Origin: Phorcus lineatus | Lineage: Eukaryota; Mollusca; Gastropoda; Trochida; Trochidae | Direction: 5' to 3' | DNA: 64,000 nucleotides | Assembly (NCBI GenBank): GCA_921293015.1 | Contig: OV121087.1 | Span: 10,924,501-10,988,500 of the forward strand | In this document: piece after piece, positions 26,101 through 63,479 of the stretch | Layout: the number at the start of each line of letters is the position of its first letter | Position numbering within the stretch: the stretch's first letter is position 1 | Made by a program: the position numbers and the translations under genes | The notes under the pieces: model-generated | Seen by the model: only the letters and a program-made list of their open reading frames with translations | Databases searched by the model: none | Told to the model about the DNA's origin: nothing

Positions 26101-29100
26101 AAGATTGTTAGATAAGGTTAATTTTTTATATTGCCGTGAAACACTTCTTAAACATTGTCACACGAGAGGGGCCTTGAGCAAATTTCACATGGTTAAATGA
26201 AAATAGGTAAAATCGGTTACCGGTTACCGAGTCTGAGGGATGCTCATCCAAAATACACCAAATCGATCACTATATATATCAATTCATACACTCTTTGTCC
26301 AACCCCAAATCTCATTGAAACAAGTTCTATACATTCCCTCACATTTCTTTTTTTTCTTCACAACATATGTGCTACTTTCAGATCAATGTAGATAGCGAAA
26401 AAGAGCGATAAAGGTGTGTAGATCAATAAAATGATAAATGTTACAACTTTAATATAATTTTACTGAGATTGGTTTAACCCTTAGGTGCTGGAGGCGCGTT
26501 TGTGGAACTCGGGGAACCCTGAACTGATAATGGAATGGGAGGGCTACAGGCGAGTGGAAATCCAAGAACACACCACGTGTGATATCGTGTGCAGGATAAC
26601 GGCGGAGGACTGTATCAGGCGACAGGTCAGGAAAACAAAATGTTCAGAAATTGTTTGTTTGATCATTATGTCTTACTAACCCGTTTACTCCGCATTGGCT
26701 CCAATGCTAAAATGCCACCTGTTATCGACATATCGGTCCATAACGAACAGTTAGGATGCTTTCAGACCCTTGTGGTGAGGGAAGCACCTGATCGAATGAG
26801 TTCGAATCCCGCTAGAGTTGATTATTAAAAACTTTCCTTTCCTCGGCAGACGGTCGATTTTATTCAGACTGCTCCTCACCGATATTTCAAAATCTTTTCT
26901 TCCTACATTTCTGGGTAAGGATGGAGCCATATTTATCGAAAATCCTCTTATGTTGAAAATCTACAAAAAATATTCAATCCTGACCAAACTGTTAAACTGA
27001 TGGTTTGCTTAATTCAAATGAGTACACGTATGTAGCCCTCCATCTTCAAGTCATTGTCTCTGTTTTGCAAAGTAGCTACATTGAACTATTTTTGACTGCC
27101 GATAAAATAGTTGATCACTTACATTATTCTTACCTGTAACGTTTTAAATTTCAGGGGCGGATACAGGATAATCGTTTTGGTGAATGTCATAAGTTAAATA
27201 TCATGCATATTATTCTAATTTGTGTGTGAATGTTTACTGAATTTAATTTCCCTACTTTTAACTCTCCTTATATACTTTTATCACGTATGAGAAATACTTA
27301 ACTCAAATTTACCATATAACTATATTATAATCTATGTGTGTGTGTGCGTGCCCCCGTCCGCGCGCGCGTGTAGGGCGTTGATTATGAGCTCAGTGTCCAT
27401 CAATCAATCAAAAGTGTTAATCCAAAAAAAACCACATACCTCACGCGGATCTGTTGACATAAAAGTTCGTTAGTATGACAAAATATGGGAATTTTCACAG
27501 CGACAAATTATAAAAATGATTCGAAATTCATATAAAATTAGAAACAAGGGCAATCCTATATGGGTAATTCTTGTTGAAACGAGTTCAAGGGGACATTCGA
27601 GTGCATACGTGTTTGTTATCAGTTCATGATTATAATATAAACCAGTTACTGAGGGTAACATTGTGATCTATATTGGACGACTAGATTATTGAGAGCGCAC
27701 ACTAGGTAAAAAACACACGAGATAAATGAGACGCAAGCCATTCCTTGGTGCTACAAGTGTCAAAAGCCATGTCATGACTTCACAAGGCATGTTTATAAGT
27801 CTTATCATACTCCTTACATACATATAGTTTGGTTTTGTAATGTCGTATAATTAGCGTAAGTAAAGCGCCTTTTTTTCATGTCATTTCCCGAAACACTAAG
27901 TACAGCCCTTTTTCATGTCATTTCCCGAAAAAACAAGATGGCGAATGGGCGCTGATAGGCCAAGTATTTTTATATGCCACTATACCCCACACACTGGCAT
28001 TGTATTGTCACCGAACCTTCAAAGAAAATACATATAATTGACATCAGATAAAGAAACGCAGGGAGGTACAAACGACACGTTGAGATCTCTATTTACTTAG
28101 ATTAATTCTGTTTTGAACAACTTATCCATGCATATCTATTACAAGAGTTGAAGGGAAACAGGTCACTTGCATTGCAAGAAATATTTCAATACTGATTATT
28201 TGAAATGCTAGGTAACATAAAGATTTTTTAATGTGGGATTTTATACAAATATAATTGATTATGAAATTGTTTATGAAAATGATTATGACATTGATTATGA
28301 AATTAATTATGAAACACAATTATAGAATTTATAACTTATCAACACTGCATTGCGAAAAACAATGGCTTTTGTATTTCATGTCTGACAAGAAACATCTTTT
28401 AAAATCTTTCAAATTGAATATATTCCAGCGATTCTATGAATCTGAGTGCCAGTGTCGTTGCCGAACCATACGTCGATGCTCCCCTTTACAACGATGGGAC
28501 TCGGAGACCTGTCGCTGTATGTGCAAGAACCCGAACACAACCTGCCGGGCTGGGACCACTTTCAATCCAAGAAACTGCAGGTACCTGTTCATGGTAGCTG
28601 TAAGAACAGTGGCAGATCAAGGAAATTTGTAGCTCTAAGGAGTGGTAGCACGTTTTCTTATATTGTTCTCAAGAAAATGAGAATAAATGTATCCAAATGT
28701 AAGTCAATGTTTTAATTCAAAAGGAGCAGTTTTAAAACAAACGTTATATGAGCGGTTATGCTATGCGAATACATTTCCCTCCCTCAAATGATTAAAAGGT
28801 GTTCATACAAAAAATGGCCACCATTAGATTTTTCTTGATACTTGATTATCTTTCTACAACTACGGATAATTGGGAGCGTAATGAGCTGGTTTGACGATCT
28901 GAAGATAGAACATTTGACATAAACTTATGTTTAATTTAGACAATTTTCATAAATACATCTTTCCCAAAAAGGTGATACCTACCCCTTTAAAGAGCCACTC
29001 CGTGAGTTGTTGCAGTCATATATGTCAAACTTAATCAATGGTGTCATTTGATCGCGAAGTATCGACTGTTACCAAAAAAACACATTTTAAAGCTTACTGG

Positions 29101-30067
29101 GTTTTTTACGGTGACAATATGAAGGTAGAACATCGCAATTATGATCGAAAACCGGACAGTGGCGTGCGTCAAATAGTCAAACGTAATTTTGGAGACTTAT
29201 CTAAAACATCTAGGAGGGCAGTTAGGACTTGATAGCGTTTATTAGGTTATATAACTAGTATCCATGTATATTGGACGTGATATCTACACCTCTGTGCATT
29301 TATAAGGCTGTTTTTAGATTTTCATGGAAAACCAGTATTTGTCATATGTATGTCTTTTGGACATGAAAAGTTAAGATGTTTTGATTTTATATCAACACAT
29401 ATGACATTTAGGTTCGTTTCAAAGGTAAATAATACGTTATGAAAATCACGGAGTGGCTCTTTAAGCTTTAAATTTATTTGGGACTGAGATTTCAGATGTT
29501 GGTAGTCCTGAAGAATTTCTTAATTGCCTTTTTGCAAAGATTAATGACCTTGATGATGGCAAAATGCGGGGGTATGCTTCTATGGTCACATTTTTTTCTG
29601 GTTTAATCTTTTACAAAGGCCGTTTAATCTATCTACGAACCCGTCTTATCTACGAAACCATAGCCTTACGAATCTGCTGTGTCAACGAAAACACGGGTTC
29701 CCCATTTTATTGAGAAAAATGATTGGTTCTGATTGGTTAAGGACAAAAGGTTCAAAGGTTAGGTTTACCCATGTCCTTTGTTGTTGAGACACTGCAAATG
29801 AAGTCTACGACCTTCACCTTCAAAGAGAGTCAATGAAATCTCCTATTTTGCAGATGTAGGATCACCCGAATCCGACAGACCTATGCGGCCTTGAACACTG
29901 AGAACCAAGCCGACGAACATATTCAGTTAATCGGGGATGAAAACTTAGAAGATGACAACCCATGTGCTCCCCCGTTCTTTTGCCCCCGTTTCTTCACCAG
30001 GGTTGCGCGGAATGGAGGGTGCTTTTGTAACCCTTCTTTCAATTTCCGGGGGCCCCGCCGGAAGTGA
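20133..30067 (+). CDS. PDGF/VEGF-like growth factor PVF-A (seven exons)
   Basis: This is a secreted cystine-knot growth factor of the PDGF/VEGF family, whose relatives activate receptor tyrosine kinases. Exons are 20133-20177, 23366-23489, 23866-23913, 25675-25865, 26485-26625, 28429-28580 and 29854-30067. All introns have GT-AG ends and phases fit, giving 915 nt (304 residues plus stop). Exon 1 is a hydrophobic signal peptide (MIQRIITVFGFCLIT). Exons 2-3 form an N-terminal region. Exons 4-5 form the growth-factor domain with PRCTRVKRCGGCC and all eight family cysteines (C83, 108, 114, 117, 118, 125, 168, 172). The last two are spaced CxxxC where the family usually has CxC. Exon 6 is a cysteine-rich CxCxC repeat like the VEGF-C/D tail, with one N-glycosylation site (NTT). 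Exon 7 ends in a second small cysteine motif (NPCAPPFFCP). PVF-B is its tandem paralogue. The family is certain; which PVF subtype it represents is not. Confidence 0.92.
20647..21530. mobile_element. Two TTAA-type MITE copies facing each other
   Basis: After TTAA (20643-20646) the sequence AGAGCCACTCCGTGAG begins an element matching the intact copy at 28991-29460. It shares GATCGAAAACCGGACAGTGG near 20760. The reverse complement of that core recurs at about 21467-21512, so a second copy lies in opposite orientation. Neither right end is intact. The pair lies in PVF-A intron 1. Confidence 0.65.
22045..22105. repeat. Three-copy 20-bp tandem repeat
   Basis: The unit GATGACCCGTTTGATCATTA (second copy starting GTTGAC) is repeated three times in PVF-A intron 1. 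It is not present at the homologous position in PVF-B intron 1. Confidence 0.85.
22210..22470 (-). pseudogene. LINE reverse-transcriptase C-terminal fragment
   Basis: On the minus strand the frame reads GILFPRSLPWSPYVNN, QAKKIAWCVL and INPIILYRTGIWE. This matches the region after the reverse-transcriptase core of L1/RTE-like elements, whose pattern is YLGI.FS, then QA.KA, then PILLYG.EIW. It is a short remnant without catalytic motifs. A second remnant at 22830-23110 lies upstream on this strand but would belong further downstream in an intact element. Confidence 0.6.
22830..23110 (-). pseudogene. LINE C-terminal zinc-motif fragment
   Basis: The minus strand reads GVQIEDEFHFILQCSKYKE followed by a YIKHYYW segment and, after a stop, LVTxKNTTQLCNLGKFLE-like sequence. 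The ED.FHF...C..Y pattern is the usual C-terminal end of several LINE clades. It is interrupted by stops and lies in PVF-A intron 1. Confidence 0.6.
25178..25285. repeat. Short inverted repeat in PVF-A intron 3
   Basis: The arms GATGACCCGGTG and CACCGGGTCATT lie about 70 bp apart (25181 to about 25275). This could be the ends of a small foldback element or of a decayed MITE. No target duplication was identified. Confidence 0.4.
28991..29460. mobile_element. TTAA-flanked MITE
   Basis: This 470-bp element has inverted ends AGAGCCACTCCGTGA / TCACGGAGTGGCTCT and is flanked on both sides by TTAA (28987-28990 and 29461-29464). TTAA duplications are typical of the piggyBac and Kolobok superfamilies. 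It sits in PVF-A intron 6. The 64-codon frame inside is partly shared with the copy at 20647 but resembles no protein I know, so it is left uncalled. Confidence 0.8.
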
Positions 30068-32220: not shown

Positions 32221-32330
32221 CAAGTTCGAAATAATATGTTTTGCATCAGCAATGACAATAACCAAAATAAACAGCTACCTATTCCATACTGCCAATTGAC
32301 CTCTTAACTCGCTGTACCTCACGGTCGGCG

Positions 32331-32338
32331 TATAAAAG
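32331..32338 (+). promoter_or_regulatory. TATA box of PVF-B
   Basis: TATAAAAG lies 81 nt upstream of the PVF-B start codon, in a block nearly identical to that of PVF-A. Conservation while the introns diverged suggests that both promoters still work. Confidence 0.75.
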
Positions 32339-32411
32339 CTGTTGACATATTGATGGTGTGGTATATAAGCCCTTTACTCCCGGGCCGGCGTGAAAACACA
32401 TACATATCACG

Positions 32412-35400
32412 ATGATTCAAGGGATTGTAACGGTTTTTGGGTTGTGCCTCATAACGGTAAGTTTTTGTTTTCATCTTTTTGACTATAACCTTATAAAATT
32501 TATCACTTAAAAGATACTTTGCTATTGTAATGAATGATGCTAGTGGTAAAATTGTGACATGCTTGTCAAATACGAAACTTAGTAAAAGAACCGAGCAAAA
32601 CAAATGAAGGTGGTTATTCATGAAAATTCTTAAGCATTGTTTAGAAGCCTATTTCACGAAATGGACCTTTTCTTTGGGCTAGAATCGTATTTAAAGATTT
32701 AACATTTGTGTTCAATTAATGCATACGTTGATTTGCTTTTGTAATCATGATGTATGATAGGTATGCCTAACACGAGAGTTAGTAAAAGAACCGAGCAAAA
32801 CAAATGAAAGGTTAATGCAATTGTTTTCAACATTTCGTAGAAGCTATTATCTGAATTAAAAATACCTTTACACAAAATGGACATAACTTTTTCGTTTGGA
32901 AATTAAAAAAACACAATACATTTCTTTCTTTCTAGATCAACTATGGATATTTCAGGTTCTTTATTCTTATCAAATATACACAAGTTATAAAGATAGTTGA
33001 ACATATGAATGTTCAATGTGTGAGAAGTATTTATGATGGACGATGTCATCAGAATTAATAGGTTATGTATATACAAATTTGGTATGTTCATGTGAAGTAC
33101 ATAATTGGCTTTCACGATTAGCGATGCTGATAACCAGAAGCAAATCAAAAGTTTGTCCACTTATTGCTGTATCTTAGTGCAAATATCAGATAATTTGGAT
33201 TTGGTTTTGAAATCAATAGAATAACCTTAACTCATTGTCATTGTGTAAAATAGCCGTATTATCGTATTATGAGATTGTCAGGTCTCTTGTGCACATCTTC
33301 GAATCTGGGTATGATCTAATAGACAGAAGGGGTCACATTTTCGAGATTCTGATTTCCTTCAATTTCGATAAGAATATTCCATTTCGACTCTCTAAGGAAA
33401 AATTATATTGACTAAATGCAAATGTACAGACATGACTTGTGTTTAGACCTGGTGATCACTAATAAAGGAATTTGTGGCCTGCCAAAAGTTGTTGCGGGTA
33501 ACTGTACACGATGGCATACGAAGGCATAAGTAATGAATAGAATGATACAATATTCTGAAACTAATGAATGTAGATAAAACTGTAAACAAATCTCATTAAA
33601 ACCAGACGAAACTTATCGCTATTTCTTGAAATGAAGCGAAATACGAGAGACAAGTATCGACTGATTTACTTGAACTCTAACGTATCTTGGAAGCCTATGA
33701 ATATTCACTAACCAAGAAAAAGAAAAAGGATTCGCATTAACTTAGGCAAAGATATATTGCCTTTCGCCTTTCGAATAATGCATTTTATTCAAAATGTCCA
33801 TATGTGTAAACCTTTAGTTCTAATAAATTAAAAAGTCTCAATAAGCCAATTCTTTATAGATGTTAATAATAATATAATAATACACAACATTTATATAGCG
33901 CCTTATCTGCTTATTAAAACACTCTAAGGCGCTTTACATTATACAAAATAAAATAAGGTATGCACGTTTAAAAAAAAAGAATTTTATTATCCACCTGACG
34001 AATATCTACACTATACTTTCCCTTCGAGTAAGAACTAGCTAAAAAAAATTGTTTATAAGAAAAAATGACAACAGTGATTTTTACTAAAGCACCAATAAAA
34101 AACCCCAAGAAACAATTAGTTGAAAACAATTGAAATATCGTACATAAACCATTATTATTCCATTGCTTAGCCGATGTTTCAAAATAACTACATATATTCG
34201 ACTTACGATCCGAATTTATTTCCGCATAAAAATTTATTTACGCATTTTAAAAAATACATTTCATGTCTTAACGACTTGCTAAAGTCCATCTATTTCATGA
34301 CGTGTTTTTATATAATCAGTGATGAAAACAAAGTTACTTAGACATTTGGGTAGTTTTGTGACAGTATGTTGGATACAAATGTCTCCAACAGGATTAATTT
34401 ACACCAAGCCTCCAATAGTTTAAAAATTAATTTTATCTCATATAAATACGTTAATCCGTTATTCAAAATTTGACATATTGTTTTAACTAAGTACACGATC
34501 ATAAGTTTTTATTACTGAAATTTGGACATACTACCTTCAAATTTAGGACATTTTTCTTCCTTGGTTTAATATAAGGCTTACCCTAATTAGGATATTCTAA
34601 ATCTAGATCTTGAGTTTGACAGTCCACATTTGCATTTTCATATCCTTATCAAGATATTTTATAATTTGAAGATAATACGTCCTTAGGAGACGTTTCGTCA
34701 AAGTAATAAATTTGTTGCTCCTTATTACGAGTGTGTGTTTATCCAGTGCATCTGGTATCATAATAATTCTAGCATCCTATTTCTAACATGTATACTAACA
34801 CCTAGGTACGTGTAAGTAATACCTTCTCCTAGTTCGATAGCCCATTTCAACAGGTGGTTAGTCCCATGAGTATTTGAAGATCTATTCAAATTAAGATTAT
34901 ATATATTATATGTTAAGAAATATTGATCTCCCAATTACCAATATTCTTAAATTATGGGATTATATTTAGTTCAACCACGGCAAATGTAGGCCTATCAGTA
35001 TAATATAACTAAAGGCTCCTGACTCTATATATACATGTAAGTATTCACTACTAGCTAAATAACATATACATATAAACAAGGTACAACAGAGACCGATCTG
35101 CAAGGGGACCGGATATGAGAACTTGGACCTGTCTACGACGTTTACAATGGGTAATCGAGTCAGAAAACCAGTGTAGTAATTTCCGGTCCTCTTCGTTCTC
35201 GTTTGATATTTTACTCGAACACATGATATAGCGAGGCAGGCTTATATTTACTGACCTCTTTTTTTACAAGCCAACCTTTAATGAATCAGCAATCGTAGTT
35301 TTCCTTCAAATCAAGGATTTATTTCTTAAAAAATGTTGTTGTCATACAGCTGCATGCCAAAAGTTTGTTCACCTACCTGAATATACTAGTGCAAATATCA

Positions 35401-38400
35401 TGTAATTTGAGATGCCTTAGAGGTATCGTAGAGTTGCGAAAAAGAAACGTATAATAATGAATTTTCAATACAGATAGGCAGATCCATTCTTCTTTAAGGC
35501 AATTATTTATGTTACCCCCCATTATTACCCGTAACAGTTTTGGCAGGCCATTGAAGTGACCAGGGGTAAAAATTCCGAAAACACTAATTTTTATTTTTCT
35601 CCATAAAACCCTTTATAAGTTATCAACTTCTTTAGAAATAAGTCACGTTTGTTCCTTAGCACAAAGTCAATGTGATTAGGTTGGTTTTTATCTTGGAGAG
35701 TCTATATGGAACATTTCATTTATTTTAACAAACTTTCGGTATGCAGCTGTAGATCCAGCCTTGTCAAAAGATGGTCCTTGCTGCGCTGAAAACGTTAGGG
35801 AGGCGTGTTCATCGATTTTTGGTTCCTGGTTCGCCTGATGCTACGTGCCACACTAACAATTATTATATGTCCCGCCCCTCAGGTGTCACCCCAGACGAGC
35901 ATCTACAACGAGCGTATGCTTTTGACCCTCGACAATCTTAATATGCTGTTCAATATGGTCTGGATGAGGGCGGAAGATGGCGCGATTGTACAGAGTCAAG
36001 AGTCTGATGGTCAGTCACACTGTATCCTCTAGTTCAACTCAATCTTTATTCAGTACTCAGAAGGACTCAGGCCTATAGTACATTACATTTACATTTGTTG
36101 ATACATATTACACATTTATAAAACAATTAGGTTTCTTCTGTATACAGATCCGTAAAATATATACACGGACAGGTTTTCAATTTCTTCATTATTTATATTG
36201 TATCTTCTGCAGGGACGTATAGCAACAGGGCCTCAGGTCATTTACAACCCCCAAAGTGTTAATGTGTTTGATGTGCCCCCCCCCCCCCCTCTCAATTTGG
36301 ACACCATACTTACATTATATTATATATTAATATATATACACACAGAGTAAACCCTAGTTATAATGCCCCTGGTTATAATGCAAAACTGGATACAATGCCA
36401 TTTTCTTGCCAGGACGGATTTCCCGCACTTGTATTTCACTGGATATAATGCCAAACTGGATATTGTGCCATTTGCAAACTCCTCACGGAACAAAAGTCAG
36501 TTTTCCCTCACTATAATGCTAATTAGGTTCATTGGCATGCCTCAAATCAATTCACATTGGGTGCATCCCGTATAGGTACATTAATTGGTGGTCAATAGGC
36601 ATTAACTACTTGAGTGATATTCTACTTGCCCCAAATTAATTGTCAAAACTCGTCACTTCTTTAAGTAGTTGCTTGTACACCAGTTCATCATGACAAAATC
36701 ATGGCAACTAAGCGCAAACGGTGCCAACCTTGATAAAGTACCGTAAATTCTCTTGGACAAATGATGGCATTATAACCGGGGTTTACTGTATATGCAAGAA
36801 AGTATACTAAAATGGGTAATATGATGAAAAATAGAAAGTATCCTACAATGGGTATGATGATGATAAATAAATTTCAAATTATAGATATACAACACTTAAT
36901 ATATAGACACGTATCACATTTACAATACCAGCAAAGATTAGGCATAAAATAACATTTATCCTAGCTTTAGGATAATCGATAAACCTCTGATTACTCACAT
37001 GCTAGAAAATACTCTAGCACATGAATATATGCATTACAATGCATTGATGCCATATTTTATTTTAATAGCTGCACTAACTTACCACTGCATTTATAATATA
37101 TAGATATAAATTGATAAAATATATAAACACATTTGTGTGATGCACTATTTTCAACCTTCACATCATAATTACATGATGTGTATAAAAAGATAACAGACAC
37201 TAATTACTTGTGCCATCAAACGGAGGATTATGAATGGTAGCCTTAGTAATTAGCAATGCATGAACTACAGATAAAACACATATATACAAACATACACACA
37301 ATAGCTTAGCCCTATTTCCTATAGATTTAACGAATAATAAATATTGCCGATAACATAATTCTGATATTTATGATTATATGAAAAATGCTGATCATTTAAC
37401 TAACCTATGTGTGAAAGATCCGAGAAAAAAGGTAACTGTAGGTCTTCTGTCAAGTGTCTGAAATGTGTGTTTCATACAAGGTGAAATAATGCAGTAAAGA
37501 GAGTTATAAGTGCTGGTAACCTGTATTGACTACAGAGCATGCAAAGTGAGAAATAAGCTTACCTAAAAATAGAGAAAAAATGTTAGAAACCTGAAGTAGC
37601 TAAGAGGTCAGAGAAGATAACAATAGAGAGTCAGCAATTTACATGGTTACAAGCTTGCAATGTACATTTCTCTGCTACTAATCTGGGCTGTTACAATCGA
37701 AGCACCTGAAATACAATATTTATTAGTACATGGATATTTACATCTAATACAGCTGCATACCGAAAGTTTGTTCACCTACCAATGAATCTTAGTGCAAATA
37801 TCATGTTTCTGGGGTTTCGTTTCAACGTCAATAGAATAACTTCAGCAAAACTGACAATGGATCACCCACTGTCCATGTGTGAGATAGCCATTAGCTCATT
37901 TTGGGATCGTCTGGTCTCTCGTGCAAAAATGGTAATTTTGGCATATTGATATAGACAGATGGGGTCATATTTTTAAAATTTCGATTTTCGTTAACTGTCA
38001 TATAAAATGTTCCATATCGACCCTCCAAGATTAAAACCAACCTAATCACATTGACTTTGTGATAAGGAACAAACGTGACATATTTTTAAAGAAGTTGATA
38101 ACTTATAAAGGGTTTTATGGAGAAAAATAAAAATTAGTGTTTTCGGAATTTTTACCCCTGGTCACTTCAATGGCCTGCCAAAACTATTACGGGTAATTAT
38201 GGAGGTACCATAAATAATTGCCTTAAAGAAGAATAGATCTGCCTATCTGTATTGAAAATTCAGTATTATACGTAAAATAAATTATTTCAGAAGACAATTG
38301 CTGTAGGTATCATTGGAGGGTGGAGGCTTTTTATTTTCACTCTTTGACAAATCTTTTCAACAGTCGTCGCATTTCGAATTGTTGACAAGTCTTTTCTACA

Positions 38401-41400
38401 GTGTGTTGAAAAGACTTGTCAACAGATCGAAATGCGACGCATCCAGTCATTAAAAACTTACATACAGCAAGTGGGGTCTGAGGTATCTTATTTTTAAAGT
38501 GGGGTAATTGGTCGTGTATCAATCTTTCGAATGTTCAAAGTAGTAAAACCAATTTGACGGATTGGCACTGTGATCCTAACCATTGTTTAGCTTGCTAAAA
38601 ATTTGAAGGTGCCAAAATAAGAAAAAATGGGTGTCTCCTTCTAAACCTTTAATAGCTTATTTTAAAGGCGTGTTTGCTTTTCTTTCCTAATGATGTTTTC
38701 CATAAAGCATTGCCATCTACTGATGTTATACATCGTCTAGAAAAAAGTGCTCGCATCATTATCGTATTACTTATTAAACTCATGAGACAGATTAAGCACG
38801 TAATTTTCTAACCTATGTATACTCATGAGATAAAATATTACAAAAATTGCTGCATTCCAAAAGTGTTTTCTCTTACTTGTTTATAGCAGTGCAAATATGT
38901 TATATCATTAATCTTGGTTATTTAAGTTTCATAGCATGAAGAAAATAAAACCGACATTGTTGGGTTATATGGTAAGATATAATCCCATTGGAGTGTTTCA
39001 TGTAATGATATTTATCATACCATACGTTATCTTTAACAGTTTTGGCAGCTCATGGAAGTGACCAGGGGTCAATATTTCGAAAACAACACACACTAGTCAT
39101 ACATTCATGTAATATAATGTACTTAGTATGTATTTTGTTTCATTAAGTTGATATGATAAAAATAAAAAAGATGAAAAAATGTAACACCAACCTGACCAAT
39201 CATAGCACTTTAAAAAGCAATATAAGGTATAATTCAACATTTTCAGCAGGTATTTAGAGCTCCGTTTGAATGATTCAAACGTATTCATGTGGTGACATAA
39301 TATTTTTTCATGGATTAACCTCTCCATAACATGTCACCAACTCGCGCGGTTTGATTGGTTTTCGAAGCGTACTTTGAGATTTTAAACAATCAATGAAATA
39401 GCTCAATGGTATAGCGTGAAAAAAGTTCTCTTGCTATTTATGAAGACAATTATTATTCAAGAATGTGTTCACCATTAATAACATTGTTATTTTAAAAGGA
39501 CGTGTTTCTTCTGCTTAAATGTTTAATCGATATTTGAAAACGTTCCGCAATTGTCACTTAATTCAAGTGGTCATTGAAATAAATTAACACGGAGATTGCA
39601 AAGACGAAAACGCACACAGTAGTATTCTCTTACTTACTAAATAGGAGAAAAGAGGGAATATATTACCTCTATGTTCAGCCATTATCAAGGAAAATTTCTT
39701 CACCCTGATGAATGGTGAATTATATTGTATGTAATTGTATCGCTTCATCGTAACGGACGCATGTGATATGACACATAAAATTATTTATTAAACAACTTTT
39801 CCCCTAAGGTAAGGTAACCGTGTGAAAATATATACGTTTGTAGAAGAATGTAATAGTCAAAATATAACTTATTTGTTTTCATAGTTTCTTGATCGATTTA
39901 GCATTTAATCAGTTCATGTTGAATAGCATGAATCAAGTAACAGTAGTTAGTAATAACGTTATTTTCATATTGTTCTTGTGCAACAACCAGCATGTACATT
40001 TATTAGTTTCGAATATTTGTCATACAGTGTAAGTTGTCAACACTCCTTGGAACTTTATATAAAGCTCATTGGAATAAGAGAATAACAAAAAGGACTAAAT
40101 CGTCATCAATTCCGTTGTCAAATGAGTAAAATCTACTCTTTCGTGATCAGTATGCTCACTTCACTTGCTCAGCCGCCTGAAATTGGTATTCATGAAAAGA
40201 ACAGAACCATTATCGCTCTCATGTCATTGCATATATATTTGGATAAAGCTTTAAACTATTATATTTACTTATTTCAACTGTGGCAATAATTAGAACTATA
40301 TATGAACGTGCAGCTAGTGTTGCCTCCAAAAAATATGTTTATATGTAAAGTCGATTCCCCCCTATGAACGTGCGCTTTCAAACCGTTGTTGAGAGGGAAG
40401 CCTCTGATAGAATGAGTTTGAATCCCGCTTAAGTAAATTGTAAAACTTTTATTCCTTTGGAAAAGGTCGATTCAATCAGACTTGAGGGGCATTTTTTATA
40501 TCGATCCGAATACACCATTGAGTTACAACTATTGCATTTGTACAAAAGTTGCATACCTACAATTTTACTGACATTGCCAATACAGTGATTTGTTTCAGCT
40601 ACACCTGAAACTAGGAAGCAAGGAGACCAGCTGTGTGACAAAGAGGGTGAGTTAATCAGCGTTGTGTTTTTCCGAAATGTGAATGTGAACAATTAAAAAA
40701 AAAGTACCGACTTCTCAACTATTTCAGGAAATATCCAACTAAAATAATTACAGATTATTTGACCAGAGCAGAAAAACCTTTAAACATGTGTGTAGAATCA
40801 AACAAAGGGTGTTTAGAGAAAACATGACAAAGACACATACTAAAGGATCTGTATCAAAAGATCAAAATGAATTCTGGATAACGATTATTAATAAGAGAAT
40901 CGATGATCATGTTGAAAGTGTTGGACTAATTGGTGAATATCAAGGTGGTGTAAAAAAAAACCCAACATCCTACGATAGATTATATATTCACTCTGCAAGC
41001 CATAATTGAAAAAACCCACTAGAAAACAAGATAAATTCTATTGCGCATTAATTAGTTGATTAAAAAAGGCGTTCGTCATGGTTAATAGGACAAGGCTTCT
41101 CTATCTTCTTTTGAATAATGGGATACATGGACACTTTTAAAGTTCTACAAGATTTGTATAAAAAGGTGAAATCTGCAGTCGTAATACAACGTACAACGTA
41201 CGAAACTGTCTGTTATTTCAACTCCTCTACAGGAGTAAGACAGGGATGTGCACTTGGTCCGCTGTTGTTTTCCATTTTTATCAAGGAGCTGACCGAAGTG
41301 AAGTTTTTGATAATGGAATATTTTTATCAGAGGATATGTATTATATTTTGTCTTTACTCTTTGCGGATGATTTAGTTTTTTAACTTACAGATAAAGACTT

Positions 41401-53700: not shown

Positions 53701-56700
53701 TATTCCTTCACCATGTTCTTCGCTGATGAAAAACACTTGTCAAAAGCAATCTTGGTATGATCTGAACCATGGTTGTGGATGTTGTTAAATGTCGTGATGG
53801 AGTCGTTCTATGTGTTGATGGTAGCTGGACATGCAGATATGCTACATTTCCAGTGGATGCTGGTACCTCTGGTTCATTTTACTCGATACTTATAACCTCG
53901 CTGTACGAGGCTTCTGCCACAACGACCGTTGGGAATGAATTGAACGTCTACCTGTACAACTGACAGACAGACAGACATTTTATTCAGTAAAAGGCCACTG
54001 GCCCATAATACAGTCATAAGCAGGTAAATATTGCATGAGCGTTATAGAATTCACTAGAATTTCTTATTTTCCTAACGTGACATAAAAATAGACATAAATT
54101 GTTAATCACATCTTTATCTGTTGATGACATGAGATTAACAAAAGTGTATTTTCGAAATTGGATGTTTAAGATATTTATCAAGAAATATTTTCCTTATATC
54201 CGAATAGGCTTTACAGTAGAGTATCACATGTATTTCATCTTTAATTAGATTAAGATTAGACCTTTTACAAATAGAGTACCTGTACATTTTGAAATGACTG
54301 CTTCCATATCACCTTTCTTATATATGAGTGTCTACAGTGATCACTTAACATTAACTTAATCAACAAATACGAACAATCGCTGACCAAATGTACATGTGAA
54401 CATGATTAAAACCATTAAGGTTGAACACATTTCATTGACATTGACGAAGGTGGGGAGCTCAGCTGAGCATTTGACATGACCCCCGAGCTTGTATAAACAT
54501 TGTTTATCTTAATTCCGGCTAATGTCTGAGACCAGACACGAAATGTAGAACGCTGATTGGATGCAATGAAAGTTAGTTGTGCAATCAGCCAATTCATTCC
54601 AATCGTCCAACTTTATTCGAATATGTACGTTGCACATTGAGTCGTCTTTACAGAACACATACGCCTCAATTTACGACTGTATCATTGTACAGGCCTGTGT
54701 GACAACAAATATGTTATTCATGCATTCGGTGTTTTCATTGGCTAACATATTGCCAGGGAGTTTAATTAGCTATGTTGCGCCGGTTGGGGAAACTGCCTGA
54801 GCCCGACAAACCTTCGTATTAAGACAGAGATTGTAAAGAAAGCTACCGCTTTTTGGAGAGAATGGTCGAATTCTAGAGTGCCTTTTTATCAATACAGTTG
54901 TTGTTCGATGTGCTAATAGAAATATCCATCGGATATAAATGTGAACACTGTGTGACCAGCGGCTAAACGTTTCTATACTTTCACAATCACCCTGTGTATT
55001 GTTTTTTTTATTCAAGATATGCCAGCGCTAGCGATGCTTGACGAGTGCATGCCCCGACTGACGACAGTAGAGATACCCCGTGAACCAAACGACGACATCA
55101 ACGTAAAACTATGGCCACCCACTATCCGTATCAAGCGTTGTGGAAGCTGTAGCCCCAATGAAGGATGCGTTGTCAAAGATGCAGTCGACAGGCAATTCAG
55201 GGTATACCAAATGATAAATAGCATAGGCTATAAGCATTGCTAGGGGATATTTAGCTTTTTCTTTACAAATTACGGTAACCGAGCGAAAATGGGATAGTAA
55301 GGTGAATATGAGACCGCTAAAAATATATAATGACGCTTAAACAGCCAGATGCAATAAAGACATTGCGAAACAATGTATAAAAGGAAAATTTGATTATTTT
55401 TTTAACTACCTTTCATATATGAATATATTTTGGCTTAGCTCAATTTAAGGTAACATAACGTGAATAGTACTAAAATATGTGGGTTAAATAAGATCGATCC
55501 CTATGTATCTCAATTTAAATACTCTTTTGAAAACCAAAATCTCATTGAAACAAGCACAAATAATTGGCTCACATTTCGTTTGCTTTTCTACAGAACACAT
55601 TTGCTATCATGTGAATTATAGCGAAAACGAGCTGAGTGGTGAACATCACTAAAATTTTAAATCTTTTATCTTATTTTACTGAGATTTTTTAAACCCCTAG
55701 GTGATGGAGGTGCGTTTGTCGGACTCGGGGACCTCTGAAATGAGGAAAGAATTTGAGGCCCTCAGGCGGGTTAAAATCCTGGAACATACTGCGTGTGAAA
55801 ACGTGTGCATGATAAGGGCGAAGGACTGTAATTTGGGACAGGTATGGATGATTAAATGTTCAGAAATTCTTTTTGATTATATTAAGTAGTTTATTTTACT
55901 CCAATGTTAAAATGACACCTGTGATCAACACGTCTGTCAAAAACGAGCAATCAGGCTGTTTTCAAACCGTTCTTGAGAGGAAAGCAACTGATAGAAAGGG
56001 TTCGAATCCCACCACAGTCAATTATCTAAAACTTTTATTCCTCGTAAGAGGTCGATTGTATTCAGACTGTTCTTACAGAAAACGTTTCTACGTTTATGTG
56101 TTACGATTGAGTCATATATCTCGAAAATCCCCTAGTGATGCAAATCTTCAAAAACAGAATCCTTGCCGATTTCTACCAATCTGTAAAACTGATGGTTTGT
56201 TTAGGTAAACTGAGTACACGTTTGTAGCACACCATCTTCAAGTCATTGTCTCAGTTTTGCAAAGCAGCTAATTGATGATAAAATAGTTGATCACTTACGT
56301 TATTCTTACCTGTAACTTTTGGAAGTTTCAGGGGTGATACAGGTTTATCATTTGGTATAAATCACGCAGATTTGATTAGAAAAAGGTTTCGTTACTTGGA
56401 AAAAAATATGGAAGTTTTCAATGCGATAAATTAGAAGAGAAGGTCAGAACTTCACATCTTGTGGAAACAAATACAAGGGGACATTCCAGTTTAAACTTGG
56501 TTATAACCTTACCCAGTTGAAACATGTTACTGAGGGTACAATTTTAATTGTTGTATATTTGACGACTAGATAAATTAGTTCACACACACTAGGTAAACAA
56601 ATAAAAAGGAGACGTAAGCCATACATCAGCGAGAATTTAGAATGTATCTGCAGTGCATGGCGAAAAACTTAATTTATTTTACATCTGACAAAACTTCTTT

Positions 56701-59700
56701 TACAATCTATTTCATTGTTGCTTACATTTCTGATCCCTACATTAATAGCTGAAGAATTTTGTGAAAAAACTCAATTACAGCTGCATACCGAAAGTTTGTT
56801 CACTACCGACTGAACCCACTGAATCGTAGTGCAAATATCATGTAATTTGGATTTCGTTTCCATGTCAGTAGAATAACTTCTGCAAGACTGACAATGGATC
56901 ACCCACTGTCCATGTGTGAAATAGTCATTCCTGAACTCATTTTAGCTTTGTCCGGTCCCTCATGCAAACATTCTAATTTTGGAATTATGATATTAATATA
57001 GACAGAAGGGGTCACATTTTCGAAATTTCGATTTCGTTAAATGTCGAATAAAATGTTCCATATCGAATCTCTAAGATTAAAACCAACATAATAACATTGA
57101 CTTTGTGATAAGAAACAAACGCGACTTATTTCTAAAGAAGTTGATTAATTATAAAGGATTTTATGGAGAAAAATAATAATGAGTGTTTTCGGAATTTTGA
57201 CCCCTGGTTACTTCAATAACCTGTCAAAACTGTTACGGGTAATTGTGGGGTACGATAAACATTTGCCTTAAAGGAGAATGGATCTGCATATGTGTATTGA
57301 AAATTCAATAGGATACATTTCTTTTTCGCAACGCTACGATACCTCAAAGGCATCTCAAATTACATGATATTTTCTCAAATTACATGACATTTTCTCAAAT
57401 TACATGATATTTTCTCAAATTACATGATATTTTCTCAAATTACATGATATTTGCACTAGTATATTCAGGGATGTGAACAAACTTTTGACATGCAGCTGTA
57501 TGTGAACAAATGTGAATAAATTCCAGCGATTCGACGACGCAACGTGTCAGTGTGAGTGCCTAAAGTTGCATGACTGCTCCTCTTTACAACGTTGGAACTG
57601 GGATACGTGTCGCTGTGTGTGCAAGAACCCGAACAGAACCTGCCCGCCAGGGACTGCTGTAAATCCAGAAACCTGCATGTTCGTGTTCATGCTAAGTGTT
57701 AGAGCAGTGTTAGAAGTTTGAAGCGTATAGGGGCAGTAACACGTTTCCTTAATTGATCTAAACGATTTTTCCAAATTTAAGACACTTTTTAAATCAAGCA
57801 ATTTTAAAACGAACGCACCATGAGCGGTTAAGGTATGTGAATATATTTCCCTGACTCAAATGATTAAAAGGTGTTCACACAAAAATGCCCGCCAGTATAC
57901 TTTTCTTAAAACTTGATTATTTTTCTTTTTTTATTTATTCTATGACAAAATCCGTAGTTTATGACGAGCTGATTTGAGCTCATGACCTTCTTCAGTTTTG
58001 AGATAAACATGAAATAAAGTTTAATGAGGCAAATATTAAGAAATGAGGTTTTTTTAAAGAAATTTCAGATGTAGATAGTTCTGAAGAATTTCTTGATTAA
58101 GTTGGGAAGCAATTATAGAAATCCTTTTTACAAAGACACCTGACCTTCAGTTGAGGCATAATTGTGAGGGTATGATGCTTTCTTGCTCATTTTTTTCTTA
58201 AATCTATTACGAACCGTTCAATGTATCTTCAAACCCTCCTCGTCTGGGAAATCACCGCGTTAAAAAACCCGCCCTGTAAACGAAAAACCAGATTCCCAAT
58301 TTTTAGAGTAAAGGTCTACTCTCTAGTTTAATGGATTAATATCGGTTCTGATTAGATAAGGTAACCGTCACAAAAGATTAAAAGGTTAGACCTAAGCGTC
58401 CTCGGATACTGAGAAGTAAGATAATGACACGATGATGACTCTTATTTTTCAGGTGTTTGATCACCCTAGTAAAACTAGATGATGACTCGCTCGAATTTAC
58501 ATTGTGGCTGATCTTACTGTTGAAGGTATAAGACTAACCCTTACCACTGTATATGGACCAAACCAAGATGATCAAGGATTTTATATTTCTCTTTTTGAAA
58601 CCATAAATGAGTTTGATAATCAATCAAAAATTATTTCTTGGGATTGGAACCTTGTTGTTAATCCAGATATTGTTTTACAAAATTACAAAAATATTAATAA
58701 TCCAAAAGCTAGAAAGATTGTAATAGAAACTTGAAAAAATTAAAGAGGAAGAAGAAAAAGGTATACAAATAAGAACTAGAATTCAATGGTATGAAGAAGG
58801 GGAAAAAGCAACAAAATATTTCTGTCCCTTAGAACAAAGAAATTATACAAGCAAACTCTTCAACTCCTTAATTAATGAAAAAAAGAAACTTCTGACTGAT
58901 GGGAAAGCCATCCTCAATGAACAAGACAAGTTTTATCATAAACTCTATGCTTCTGATAATATTGATTGTGATACTGAAGGAATTTTAAACACCGTTAATA
59001 CTCCATTACTTAATAGCTTGATTGATCTTAAGAAAATGAAAATAAGTGTTTCCAAATGTAAGACAATGTTTTCGAAAACGAATGTACTATGAGCGGTTAT
59101 AGGCTATGTGAATATATTTCCCTACCTCAAATGATTAAAAGAAGTTTAAACAGAAAAGTAGTTTTAGATAATACCTTATTATATTTTCTACGACAAAATC
59201 ATGGGGGATAATGAGCTGACATAAACTTATGGTTAGGGACAATTTCAAGAAATAAATTTTTCAAAAAAACGTGATTCAACCTCTTAAAGCTTTAATCTAA
59301 TACAAATGTTTTGGGAATTACGTTAATGATTTGGATAGTTCTGAAGAATTTGTGGTGGAAAGACATTTCCGAAATAGGACCGGTTCTGGTATGGTAAAGA
59401 AGGAGTGACAAAAGATTTGAAGGTTAGGTAACCATATGTCCTCTGTTGATGAAATACTGCAAATGAAGTCAACGATCTACACCTTTAAAGACAGTTAATA
59501 AAATTCGCAGATTTGGGATCACCCTATTCGGACCGACCTAGGCGAACTCGGACACTGAGAACCAAGACAATGACAACAAAATCTTGCAGTTAATTAAGGA
59601 TGGTGACTTTTATTTTCAGTTGTTGGAACATCCGAATGAAACAAATCTCCGTGACCGTGACCTCAGACGATGAGGAGCAAGACGACGAAATCCCTCCTAC

Positions 59701-59890
59701 AAACGAAGATGATGACTCGCTTGAACAGGAGGAAACTACAACAACAACCCCTACAACAACCACTACGAGGCCTACAACAACAGCTGATTACAACCCATGT
59801 GCTCACAGTTTCTATTGCCCCCCTTTCTTCACTATGGATGTGCTGGATGGACGATGCATTTGTAATTACTCGGGTCGTTTTAGGAAGTGA
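32412..59890 (+). CDS. PDGF/VEGF-like paralogue PVF-B, missing two cysteines (seven exons)
   Basis: This is the tandem paralogue of PVF-A. Exons are 32412-32456, 35883-36009, 40599-40646, 55017-55201, 55701-55841, 57527-57678 and 59620-59890. Phases are identical to PVF-A and sum to 969 nt (322 residues plus stop) with no internal stop. The signal peptide (MIQGIVTVFGLCLIT) is conserved. In the growth-factor domain, exon 4 reads WPPTIRIKRCGSCSPNEGC where PVF-A has WPRCTRVKRCGGCC. Family cysteine II is now T109 and cysteine V is S119; the other six remain (84, 115, 118, 124, 167, 171). The exon-6 CxCxC tail and its NRT glycosylation site are kept. Exon 7 adds an acidic stretch and a threonine-rich run before NPCAHSFYCPPFF. 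Intron 3 is 14.4 kb of nested transposons. The exon-6 donor (AT|GTTCGT) is weaker than in PVF-A. It is either a diverged ligand or an early pseudogene; the intact frame favours the former. Confidence 0.85.
32560..32900. repeat. Local duplication in PVF-B intron 1
   Basis: The block containing TTAGTAAAAGAACCGAGCAA occurs twice, about 190 bp apart, and once in the homologous part of PVF-A intron 1 (about 20290-20430). This is a PVF-B-specific partial tandem duplication. Confidence 0.7.
33128..33510. mobile_element. Old copy of the CAGCTGCAT MITE family
   Basis: This shares the interior of the family (AGTTTGTCCAC, TTAGTGCAAATATCA, GACAGAAGGGGTCACATTTTC, GGCCTGCCAAAAG) but the terminal repeats are lost. 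It lies in PVF-B intron 1. Confidence 0.65.
33855..33960. repeat. Small palindromic repeat (GCGCCTTA / TAAGGCGC)
   Basis: TTATATAGCGCCTTATC is followed 25 bp later by TCTAAGGCGCTTTACA, giving a short stem. Sequences of this kind are widespread in animal genomes as LINE or SINE tails. The family is not resolved here. Confidence 0.4.
35347..35749. mobile_element. TA-flanked MITE, CAGCTGCAT family, complete
   Basis: This 403-bp element starts CAGCTGCATGCCAAAAG and ends with the inverted CTTTCGGTATGCAGCTG, with TA on both sides. TA duplications are the mark of Tc1/mariner-type transposition. It has no open frame and ends 133 bp before PVF-B exon 2. Confidence 0.85.
36343..36788. mobile_element. 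pogo/Tigger-like MITE in PVF-B intron 2
   Basis: The ends are inverted repeats: CAGAGTAAACCCTAGTTATA on the left and the reverse complement of CAGTAAACCCCGGTTATAAT on the right, with TA after the right end. Repeated TATAATGCC motifs inside resemble the subterminal repeats of Tigger/pogo-type elements. It is 446 bp with no transposase frame. Confidence 0.7.
37750..38290. mobile_element. CAGCTGCAT-family MITE, right end lost
   Basis: The left end CAGCTGCATACCGAAAGTTT is preceded by TA and the body matches the copies at 35347 and 56778, but no right inverted end is found. It lies in PVF-B intron 2. Confidence 0.75.
38364..38440. repeat. 77-nt near-perfect hairpin in PVF-B intron 2
   Basis: The arms at 38364-38395 and 38409-38440 are 32 nt each with three mismatches, around a 13-nt loop (CTACAGTGTGTTG). 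No flanking duplication or longer inverted ends were seen. Size and shape would suit a small foldback element or a precursor-like hairpin; the sequence alone cannot distinguish these. Confidence 0.7.
38850..39085. mobile_element. Old CAGCTGCAT-family MITE fragment
   Basis: A diverged copy with GCTGCATTCCAAAAG, CAGTGCAAATATGTT and ACCAGGGGTCAATATTTCG; internal parts are deleted. It lies in PVF-B intron 2. Confidence 0.55.
40760..41405 (+). pseudogene. LINE reverse-transcriptase fragment
   Basis: Broken frames read IINKRIDD, VGLIGEYQGGVKKNPTS, VNRTRLLYLLLNNGI, TGVRQGCALGPLLFSIFIKEL and LLFADDLVF. These are, in order, conserved blocks of a non-LTR reverse transcriptase including the catalytic FADD box. 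At least one frameshift and several stops separate them, and the segment between the GVRQG block and FADD is deleted. It is the leftmost piece of the insertion nest in PVF-B intron 3. Confidence 0.75.
41476..41507. repeat. Perfect 32-bp palindrome
   Basis: The sequence is AGTTGGGATGATACAT followed directly by its reverse complement, with no loop. It may be the junction of two element ends. Confidence 0.8.
42157..45966 (-). CDS. I-type LINE ORF2 (endonuclease, reverse transcriptase, RNase H), one in-frame stop
   Basis: ORF2 of a non-LTR retrotransposon makes the enzyme that nicks target DNA and copies the element RNA into it. From 45966 the frame runs 967 codons to TAA at 43063-43065 and stays open in the same frame to 42157. 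An N-terminal APE-type endonuclease shows NACGLS, QETHFG, GDFNSHHPSWG and SDHFP. The reverse transcriptase has YRPISLTSY, LDFSKAFDMVWH, GSILSPTLFN and the catalytic FADD near residue 688. After the stop comes an RNase H domain with its four acidic residues (YTDGS, TAELMA, ILSDS, NEIADRAS) and a CPHC...H...C motif. A C-terminal RNase H puts it in the I group (I/Nimb-like). It starts 11 nt after ORF1. The stop lies in the linker before RNase H, and nothing else looks broken. Confidence 0.88.
45978..47804 (-). CDS. I-type LINE ORF1 (gag-like, zinc knuckles)
   Basis: ORF1 of the same element is 608 residues and intact; it would bind the element RNA. Three cysteine/histidine knuckles lie at about residues 300-350: CSNCLKYNHTAAQC (CX2CX4HX4C), CATCGQSECHRDTC and CIHCNVDGHTSVSFAC (CX2CX4HX6C). 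This is the arrangement of I- and Jockey-group ORF1 proteins. Long Pro/Thr/Ser/Gln-rich segments flank them. It is followed closely by ORF2 on the same strand. Confidence 0.85.
   Translation of the reverse strand: MANAANSSTALSTEASIFEELNCKIQNLNSSKLSPTDNSNQNAQTTPHFLHQTSTSPKPQNLLNLNSNEEFPPTSPLSHQNPVGNFQTPLTKRKRAHSPQSGSPHQSPKTSLQTTPPKNTAHQSTPSKQNSPQNLLTPVTLLLFAASKEIRLSRELTRDRVGTFLTSHGIKIKHIKPSGTGFQIQFLNSISAKDAKTFKTILSFNVLFQTPLWETESRGTIVFPPYEDDEALQYYRSEANKLNQPQTIKAQRHTAKSSDGSKIIPLKTVTLYFNTPNLPSSIIFGAQARDVRPTAKRVIQCSNCLKYNHTAAQCRGNKRCATCGQSECHRDTCEPHCIHCNVDGHTSVSFACPNKQHKHKTLNHKLFPNYNPRTRRENPPPKPTPAKPPAPAPTGSALPSHSVWGDPIPADPTPTTLMPPPPQATSHIQPTPSTSGPTPSKRRCTSISVTEVAPTQEEPMDSATTQPTQPDPALTAIPQTAQTQPSKPRKSVRPKAPPSRPRPTPFIPSTPSAQSSQTKPKTLFAKSKPHLPTGKVNPNSPKTKIPQNLAIATFIAAALTIRNPTPQKIYKLAKKSKFITISLNKFNQLLEDLLQDLKPKPTLLHLQF
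48061..49826. other. Nested-insertion flank without assignable gene
   Basis: This is AT-rich sequence between the I-type LINE and the Penelope-like fragment. The only structure seen is a two-copy tandem repeat near 49110-49190 (unit containing TTATACAAATTTGATATAG). It has no counterpart in PVF-A intron 3, so it belongs to inserted DNA. Confidence 0.45.
49827..50183 (-). pseudogene. Penelope-like element, inverted linker fragment
   Basis: The minus-strand frame reads TFNPNHDNVMSIVKRYLPIL, KKIVDKCNLINSRKQPKNL and KCGDSRCL. This is the segment between reverse transcriptase and GIY-YIG endonuclease in Penelope-like elements. Its continuation lies on the opposite strand from about 50196, so this 5' part has been inverted relative to the 3' part. 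Only about 118 codons remain. Confidence 0.75.
50196..50558 (+). pseudogene. Penelope-like GIY-YIG endonuclease fragment
   Basis: The open frame from about 50196 reads CESIIEGCSIHISPKDTF, then NVIYVIICAGCNEKYIGKT (GIY-YIG motif variants IYVI and YIG), then KRRMNLHRSHI and LSEHLEKC, ending in a normal stop at 50558. GIY-YIG endonucleases cut the target DNA for canonical Penelope-like retroelements. The reverse transcriptase is missing, so it is a truncated copy. Confidence 0.85.
50660..50707 (+). ncRNA. Hammerhead-ribozyme-like motif of the Penelope element
   Basis: The core boxes CTGATGA (50665-50671) and GAAA (50694-50697) flank a 9-bp perfect stem II (AGCAGGTAC / GTACCTGCT) with a 4-nt loop. 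GGC just before CTGATGA can pair with GCC at 50705-50707. Penelope-like elements are known to carry hammerhead motifs with a very short stem III in their terminal repeats. The expected NUH cleavage site reads GCC here, so this copy may be inactive. Confidence 0.55.
50736..50767. repeat. (AT)n microsatellite
   Basis: A pure TA/AT run follows the Penelope-like fragment directly; it may mark its 3' insertion junction. Confidence 0.85.
50792..51130 (+). pseudogene. LINE 3'-end fragment with zinc motif
   Basis: The frame reads TECSLCNVIEDEMHIIYHCP followed by HQTLRDDVTLLFS, the C-terminal C..C....DE.H....CP motif of several LINE clades. A TTGAATTGAAATGAAATGA tail at about 51108-51130 is typical of LINE 3' ends. 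It is strongly 5'-truncated. Confidence 0.65.
51838..53575 (+). pseudogene. CR1/L2-like LINE, internally deleted, nested in the transposon
   Basis: Homologous blocks run in order. First comes an endonuclease-to-RT linker (NPWINSTIRKLIRKRN), then after a deletion near 52130 RT blocks GVSQRSVLGPLFFLVYINDI and RLFADDTSVYV. A C-terminal part follows (KHLGSTLQSDCRWNSHI, then LSLLYKMTN), ending in a zinc motif with CGHPYEDPLHYFLICPNF. At least four stops or frameshifts interrupt it. The 3' tail ends TTTATTAAATAAA near 53560. GVPQG is mutated to GVSQR. Confidence 0.8.
53580..54798. other. Right part of the inverted-repeat transposon, no gene
   Basis: Between the nested LINE and the right inverted repeat no protein family is recognised. 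The 64-codon frame at 53769-53963 and others are short and unsupported. A TTTTATTCAGTAAAAGGCCACTGGCCC-like block near 53980-54005 (shown here only by its start TTTTATTCAGTAAAAGG) resembles LINE tails in reverse orientation. Confidence 0.4.
56778..57498. mobile_element. CAGCTGCAT-family MITE next to PVF-B exon 6
   Basis: This is a 721-bp copy starting CAGCTGCATACCGAAAG and ending ACTTTTGACATGCAGCTG, with TA on each side (56776-56777 and 57499-57500). It ends only 28 bp before PVF-B exon 6 and contains a 20-bp minisatellite absent from the other copies. Confidence 0.85.
57360..57452. repeat. 20-bp minisatellite inside the MITE
   Basis: The unit TTCTCAAATTACATGATATT is repeated four to five times almost exactly. 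Other copies of the MITE have a single ATCATGTAATTTG at this point, so the array grew within this copy. Confidence 0.9.
58441..58490 (+). pseudogene. Decayed extra copy of PVF-B exon 7 start
   Basis: TTATTTTTCAG is followed by sequence resembling the beginning of PVF-B exon 7 and then GATGATGACTCGCTCGAA, which matches the true exon at about 59709. The similarity stops at about 58490, where a LINE fragment begins. The duplicated segment also includes upstream intron sequence (57800-58440 resembles 59060-59600). Confidence 0.65.
58490..59030 (+). pseudogene. Tx1/L1-type LINE fragment in PVF-B intron 6
   Basis: The first frame reads GIRLTLTTVYGPNQDDQGF, IISWDWNLVVNP and YKNINNPKARKIV, an APE-type endonuclease segment. 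The second reads RTRIQWYEEGEKATKYF and DKFYHKLYASDN, the linker before the reverse transcriptase. Both are typical of the L1/Tx1 lineage. The stretch between them is deleted, and no RT follows. Confidence 0.8.

Positions 59891-61786: not shown

Positions 61787-63479
<1,693 letters not shown>

Follow-up and report, generated by a model that had tools for sequence, protein, structure and literature searches.

The window, a stretch of 64,000 nucleotides from Phorcus lineatus (C12:10924501-10988500 of a 958-Mb, 74-contig assembly), carries two PDGF/VEGF-like genes, PVF-A and PVF-B. Both lie on the + strand with identical exon phases, and their introns and promoters can be aligned in part. PVF-B was modelled as seven exons (window 32412-59890, + strand) encoding 322 amino acids. 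All introns are GT-AG in this model, and none of the 322 codons carries a frame-breaking change, so that the open frame of 322 residues described in the earlier note is borne out. That note concerned positions 55017..55841, which correspond to exons 4 and 5. The donor of exon 6 (AT/GTTCGT) is poor, departing from the usual donor consensus. To the left, the cluster is bordered by exons of Mediator subunit 16 (window 4737-8725, - strand; Pfam matches to Med16_N, bridge and C-terminal parts). A long CT dinucleotide run with few interruptions lies to the right of PVF-B (window 61790-61945). Intron 3 of PVF-B holds a non-LTR retrotransposon (window 42157-47807, - strand) with three frames: 980 aa for endonuclease plus reverse transcriptase, 301 aa for RNase H past a stop, and 609 aa further upstream. 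A dispersed repeat with about 85% identity between copies is found in introns of PVF-B (window 37748-38270 and 56776-57374) and of a further paralogue, PVF-C.

Features of the PVF-A and PVF-B genes, in window positions
Feature	Position	Strand	Details
PVF-A gene, 304 aa, open	20133..30067	+	7 exons: 20133-20177, 23366-23489, 23866-23913, 25675-25865, 26485-26625, 28429-28580, 29854-30067
PVF-A C108, cysteine II, codon TGT	25779..25781	+	
PVF-A C118, cysteine V, codon TGC	25809..25811	+	
PVF-B proximal promoter/5'UTR	32265..32411	+	TATAAA common to A, B and C
PVF-B exon 1	32412..32456	+	signal-peptide-like start, judged by eye
PVF-B exon 2	35883..36009	+	upstream of knot domain
PVF-B exon 3	40599..40646	+	upstream of knot domain; carries C70, present in B alone among A-D
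PVF-B exon 4	55017..55201	+	cysteines I (C84), III (C115), IV (C118), VI (C124)
PVF-B T109 in place of cysteine II, codon ACT	55121..55123	+	
PVF-B S119 in place of cysteine V, codon AGC	55151..55153	+	
PVF-B exon 5	55701..55841	+	VII = C167 (55794-55796), N169 at canonical VIII place (55800-55802), C171 (55806-55808), C178
PVF-B exon 6	57527..57678	+	BR3P-type CxCxC repeats
PVF-B exon 7	59620..59890	+	Thr-rich linker and C-terminal stretch, four cysteines

The PF00341 profile matched PVF-A with 59.5 bits and PVF-B with 36.1 bits (cut-off 27), residues 84-168 of the latter aligning to positions 1-81 of the 82 in the profile. PVF-B has this domain in common with PDGF-B and VEGF-A (PDB 1pdg, 1bj1 and others), and its residues 79-169 match PDGF-B 1pdg (E 1.2e-4). 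The VEGF-A sequences among the PDB matches include 1mjv, 1mkg and 1mkk, presumably disulfide-deficient mutants. PDGF-B and VEGF-A have eight cysteines and a C-x-C motif, whereas PVF-B has six knot-domain cysteines and departs from the eight-cysteine pattern of PF00341: II and V are absent, and the canonical place of VIII is occupied by N169, with a cysteine two residues later. Past the domain, both PVF-A and PVF-B carry two complete and one incomplete BR3P repeats (C-X10-C-X-C-X(1,3)-C). The Pfam CXCXC score is 17.9 bits for PVF-A and 14.8 bits for PVF-B, slightly below the cut-off of 15. Tails of this type are known in PDGF/VEGF relatives, according to portions of PMC10328876. The N-terminus of PVF-B, MIQGIVTVFGLCLIT, resembles a signal peptide by eye and is similar across A-C; judged from this protein start, PVF-B is probably secreted. 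As far as its sequence tells, PVF-B is a real coding PDGF/VEGF-like gene that evolves fast and has a depleted set of cysteines; its kind is known and the details are new.

The replacement of PVF-A C108 and C118 by T109 and S119 in PVF-B, from which the earlier note set out, was confirmed in both aligned columns and codons. In the protein-guided codon alignment the segment from III through V is ungapped and the codons of A and B are nearly alike, a two-codon deletion following before VI. At the place of V, TGC in PVF-A faces AGC in PVF-B. Cysteine V would thus have been substituted in PVF-B rather than misaligned, and misalignment was rejected as an account of T109 and S119. The DNA likewise favours substitution of V over deletion of IV, and one member of the IV/V pair would remain either way. 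Overall PVF-B keeps 22 of the 24 PVF-A cysteines, but of the remaining 274 aligned residues it keeps 123 (Fisher p 6e-6). The two losses therefore stand out against the kept set. The CxCxC tail is kept, as the earlier note stated. The companion claim, that the other six PDGF/VEGF cysteines are kept, holds if the spacing from VII to VIII grew by a two-residue insertion; the canonical VIII place itself is N169. It is very improbable that an assembly or sequencing error erased the two cysteines. The data consist of a single assembly, but both sites lie within a clean multi-exon gene model, II is missing in PVF-C too, and PVF-B has an in-frame deletion nearby and many flanking changes.

A search of the whole assembly with PF00341 located at least five places, all on contig C12 (14 candidates scored), and protein searches with PVF-A and with PVF-B located at least 17 places each, all within the loci of PVF-A to PVF-D; since the genome searches scored the best candidates only, these counts are lower bounds. 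Elsewhere in the genome, myosin head matches recur many times along C2:56.25-57.07 Mb, in either orientation, and the region resembles a muscle myosin heavy chain cluster (best 65 of 306 candidates). One muscle myosin exon has its best PDB match in 3i5f, from squid, followed by 2ec6, 2os8 and 1dfk (2ec6 and 1dfk from scallop), in line with a mollusc. The earlier note had described a tandem pair of one standard and one cysteine-poor ligand. A two-gene cluster was rejected once the third copy, PVF-C, was found 18.2 kb past the window end (C12:11006718-11029907, + strand, 312 aa, open); its exon 6 has lost one CxCxC unit in frame. The cluster is rather a trio of fast-evolving tandem ligands with 8 (A), 7 (C) and 6 (B) knot-domain cysteines, in which PVF-A itself is not standard. 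PVF-D (C12:6045840-6033010, - strand) encodes 288 aa in an open frame; six exons were built, the counterpart of exon 3 not being among them. PVF-E, at about 9.11 Mb of C12 (two exons built), has a PDGF/VEGF domain as PVF-B does. Unlike PVF-B, it has eight cysteines by position, a canonical NHTECGC and a three-residue insert between III and IV.

Across the five genes, cysteine II is present in A, D and E and replaced by Thr in B and Ala in C; IV is present in all five; V is lost in B only, where it is Ser. At the canonical position of VIII, the second residue past VII, PVF-A has I170, PVF-B N169, PVF-C Ile, PVF-D Leu and PVF-E Cys. In PVF-A to PVF-D a cysteine is instead found at the fourth residue past VII (C172 in A, C171 in B), giving VII-xxx-C and not the VII-x-VIII of PDGF-B and PVF-E. 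Of the 82 positions of PF00341, the match ran to 82 in E, its second CxC cysteine, to 81 in each gene of the trio and to 61 in D; phmmer set EHTACEN of PVF-B opposite DHLACKC of PDGF-B. In A-D, either VIII may have been lost in the common ancestor or two residues may have been inserted between VII and VIII. The cystine ring of A-D would be enlarged if their later cysteine is VIII.

The earlier note had raised the possibility of a gene beginning to decay, and proposed dN/dS between the paralogues as a check. Whole-protein pairwise values (NG86, YN00) were 0.88 and 1.25 for A-B, 0.94 and 1.12 for A-C, and 0.93 and 1.14 for B-C; for the knot exons A-B gave 0.85 (NG86) and 1.05 (YN00). In distances to PVF-D, dS was saturated over the whole protein. 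A maximum-likelihood codon model (277 codons, A/B/C star tree) gave omega 0.999, with the same lnL as omega = 1. Free-ratio omegas were 0.83 (A), 0.98 (B) and 1.16 (C), with an lnL gain of only 0.23, B being inseparable from 1. The near-neutral ratio was therefore found, but because A, B and C all lie near 1 it does not discriminate decay.

Neutral substitution was run with fitted branch lengths, a paralogue coding sequence standing in for the ancestor (PVF-A for B) and without indels. It produced on average 3.5 stops in A, 7.0 in B and 6.0 in C, and runs with zero stops numbered 102, 2 and 6 of 4000, respectively. Coding gaps are 3, 6, 63, 6 and 12 bases for A-B, all multiples of three, and 9, 66, 12 and 63 for A-C, while 16 of the 20 noncoding A-B gaps are not multiples of three. 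The proximal promoters differ less than six other noncoding pieces picked as alignable, at 14.3 vs 26.0% for A-B (p 0.0019), 12.2 vs 22.9% for A-C (p 0.0025) and 18.4 vs 27.9% for B-C (p 0.016). The suggestion of incipient decay is thus unsupported, given the open frame, the A-B coding gaps in threes, the kept cysteines and the conserved proximal promoter. In our reading, the frame, the scaffold and the promoter are constrained and the rest changes fast. The mean rate is neutral-like in all three genes, not in B alone.

A paralogue under relaxed constraint and heading to loss, its frame open because little time has passed, would account for a dN/dS of about 1, for A-B divergences that hardly vary among first, second and third codon positions (0.365, 0.365, 0.377) and for the poor exon 6 donor. 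At sites where the other three genes agree, PVF-B also has more changes of its own than PVF-A (21 vs 7, p 0.013), though not more than PVF-C, which has 17. In the knot domain the counts are 11 in B, 2 in A and 6 in C (B vs A p 0.022), and those of B include two tryptophans, G117 and P126. The rarity of neutral runs that stay open (2 of 4000), A-B coding gaps in threes, the selective keeping of cysteines, the conserved promoter and the similar dN/dS of PVF-A (0.83) and PVF-C (1.16) all speak against it. A recent onset of decay would slip past these tests, yet we consider this course unlikely for PVF-B, as we do decay in general.

Diversifying selection on the ligand cluster, with the scaffold kept, the rest quick to change and the cysteine losses as by-products, seems somewhat doubtful to us, though it is compatible with the explanation that we prefer. 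The mean dN/dS of 1.0 despite a kept scaffold fits it. In the site models M1a gave p0 0.11 and w0 0.09, and M2a improved on M1a by 2dlnL 6.1 (p about 0.047, 2 degrees of freedom), a borderline gain from 277 codons of three sequences with an unreliable omega class of 55.6. Codon positions 1 and 2 diverge beyond noncoding DNA for B-C (0.352 vs 0.279, p 0.003); the contrasts of exon with noncoding are, however, not significant for A-B (p 0.23) and A-C (p 0.19), and the choice of alignable noncoding pieces lowers their divergence.

Of the II and IV that each chain contributes to the covalent dimer, PVF-B has IV, and T109 in place of II. With II missing on both chains, a PVF-B homodimer could not form the usual II-IV bonds, and on this point the earlier note is upheld. 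By count, six knot-domain cysteines remain (C84, C115, C118, C124, C167 and C171), though their spacing is not canonical. Two bonds of the standard knot are I-VI and III-VII. Our leading explanation, held tentatively at a little short of an even balance, is that PVF-B encodes a fast-evolving ligand whose knot domain has six cysteines, without a II-IV homodimer bond and probably with IV in the role of V. Once II was lost, the II-IV bonds between the chains would have gone and IV would have become available; V would then have been lost, and the adjacent IV would have taken its place in the knot. The predicted bonds are C84-C124, C115-C167 and C118-C171, with a ring of 4 + 5 = 9 residues compared with 5 + 5 = 10 in PVF-A. 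The product would fold and pair without covalent links or weakly, rather than being a misfolded remnant. PVF-C, which lacks II but has V among its seven cysteines, resembles an intermediate. Were C171/C172 part of the CxCxC tail instead, the knot domain would hold an odd number of cysteines and IV would be without a partner. Monomeric PDGF has reportedly shown agonist activity, to judge from the title of Andersson 1992, cited in PMC4658112. Portions of PMC3592873 tabulate cystine rings of 8 (VEGF), 10 (noggin) and 14 (NGF) residues, and state that PDGF with serines for the interchain cysteines still dimerises, with much reduced resistance to denaturation.

The rewired knot could have been reached after one or two losses of II. 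A proline beside the place of II in B and C, absent from A and D, together with the codons ACT (B) and GCT (C), suggests one loss. With D as outgroup, codon positions 1 and 2 favour B+C (3.1 lnL), as do all positions together (1.4), and the protein tree favours A+B by 0.5 lnL; differences among the A/B/C topologies do not exceed 3.2 lnL. In the unrooted noncoding pieces B-C is the least alike pair in five of seven. Cysteine II may have been lost once or twice, a single loss not being established. Since the mechanism would work with one loss or two, the noncoding counts leave the standing of the explanation unchanged.

Missing interchain bonds are usual in protostome PVFs, and Drosophila PVF-2 and C. 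elegans PVF-1 are said to be without one or both of the cysteines concerned, much as PVF-B lacks II; the authors caution that alignment artefacts may explain some of these absences (portions of PMC10328876). PVF-B differs from these two in lacking knot cysteine V as well, and PVF-A to PVF-D differ in having C-xxx-C for VII-x-VIII. The missing II is ordinary, PVF-C lacking it too; the missing V next to a retained IV is the interesting part. PDGF-D, a CUB-bearing vertebrate ligand and in this unlike PVF-B, works with a glycine for cysteine V.

The main rival makes PVF-B, and PVF-C, subunits of heterodimers, whose retained IV would pair with II of PVF-A or PVF-D; the resulting one-bond heterodimer may be a partial agonist or antagonist. 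Both genes lack II yet keep IV. Co-expression is plausible, since the three tandem genes have similar proximal promoters that are better conserved than the remaining alignable noncoding DNA. A VEGFR-1-like Ig model matched at least one exon in the assembly (C12:29368656 region; 4 candidates scored), and the receptor of A-D may be a single VEGF-type receptor. However, IV in PVF-B could equally replace V, and one cysteine retained in two sequences is little evidence; we regard this rival as rather unlikely. Under our preferred explanation, PVF-B would be a competitor of A, C and D at a perhaps single VEGFR-like receptor, or would modulate their action there. A more elaborate arrangement, which we think quite unlikely, is a co-regulated trio with one receptor and graded covalency. 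PVF-A (8 cysteines) would be the disulfide-linked agonist, and PVF-C (7) and PVF-B (6), without a covalent homodimer, would pair with A via IV or compete as built-in dominant-negatives, the knot of B being rewired with IV for V.

If PVF-B works, it would be a natural test of how far PDGF/VEGF ligands need the cystine knot and covalent dimerisation. Possible intermediates lie side by side at one locus, PVF-C without II only and PVF-A with an enlarged C-xxx-C ring, and a trio whose cysteine numbers run from 8 through 7 to 6 makes the reading testable. A working PVF-B would also be a natural case of ligand-level modulation of a perhaps single VEGF-type receptor.
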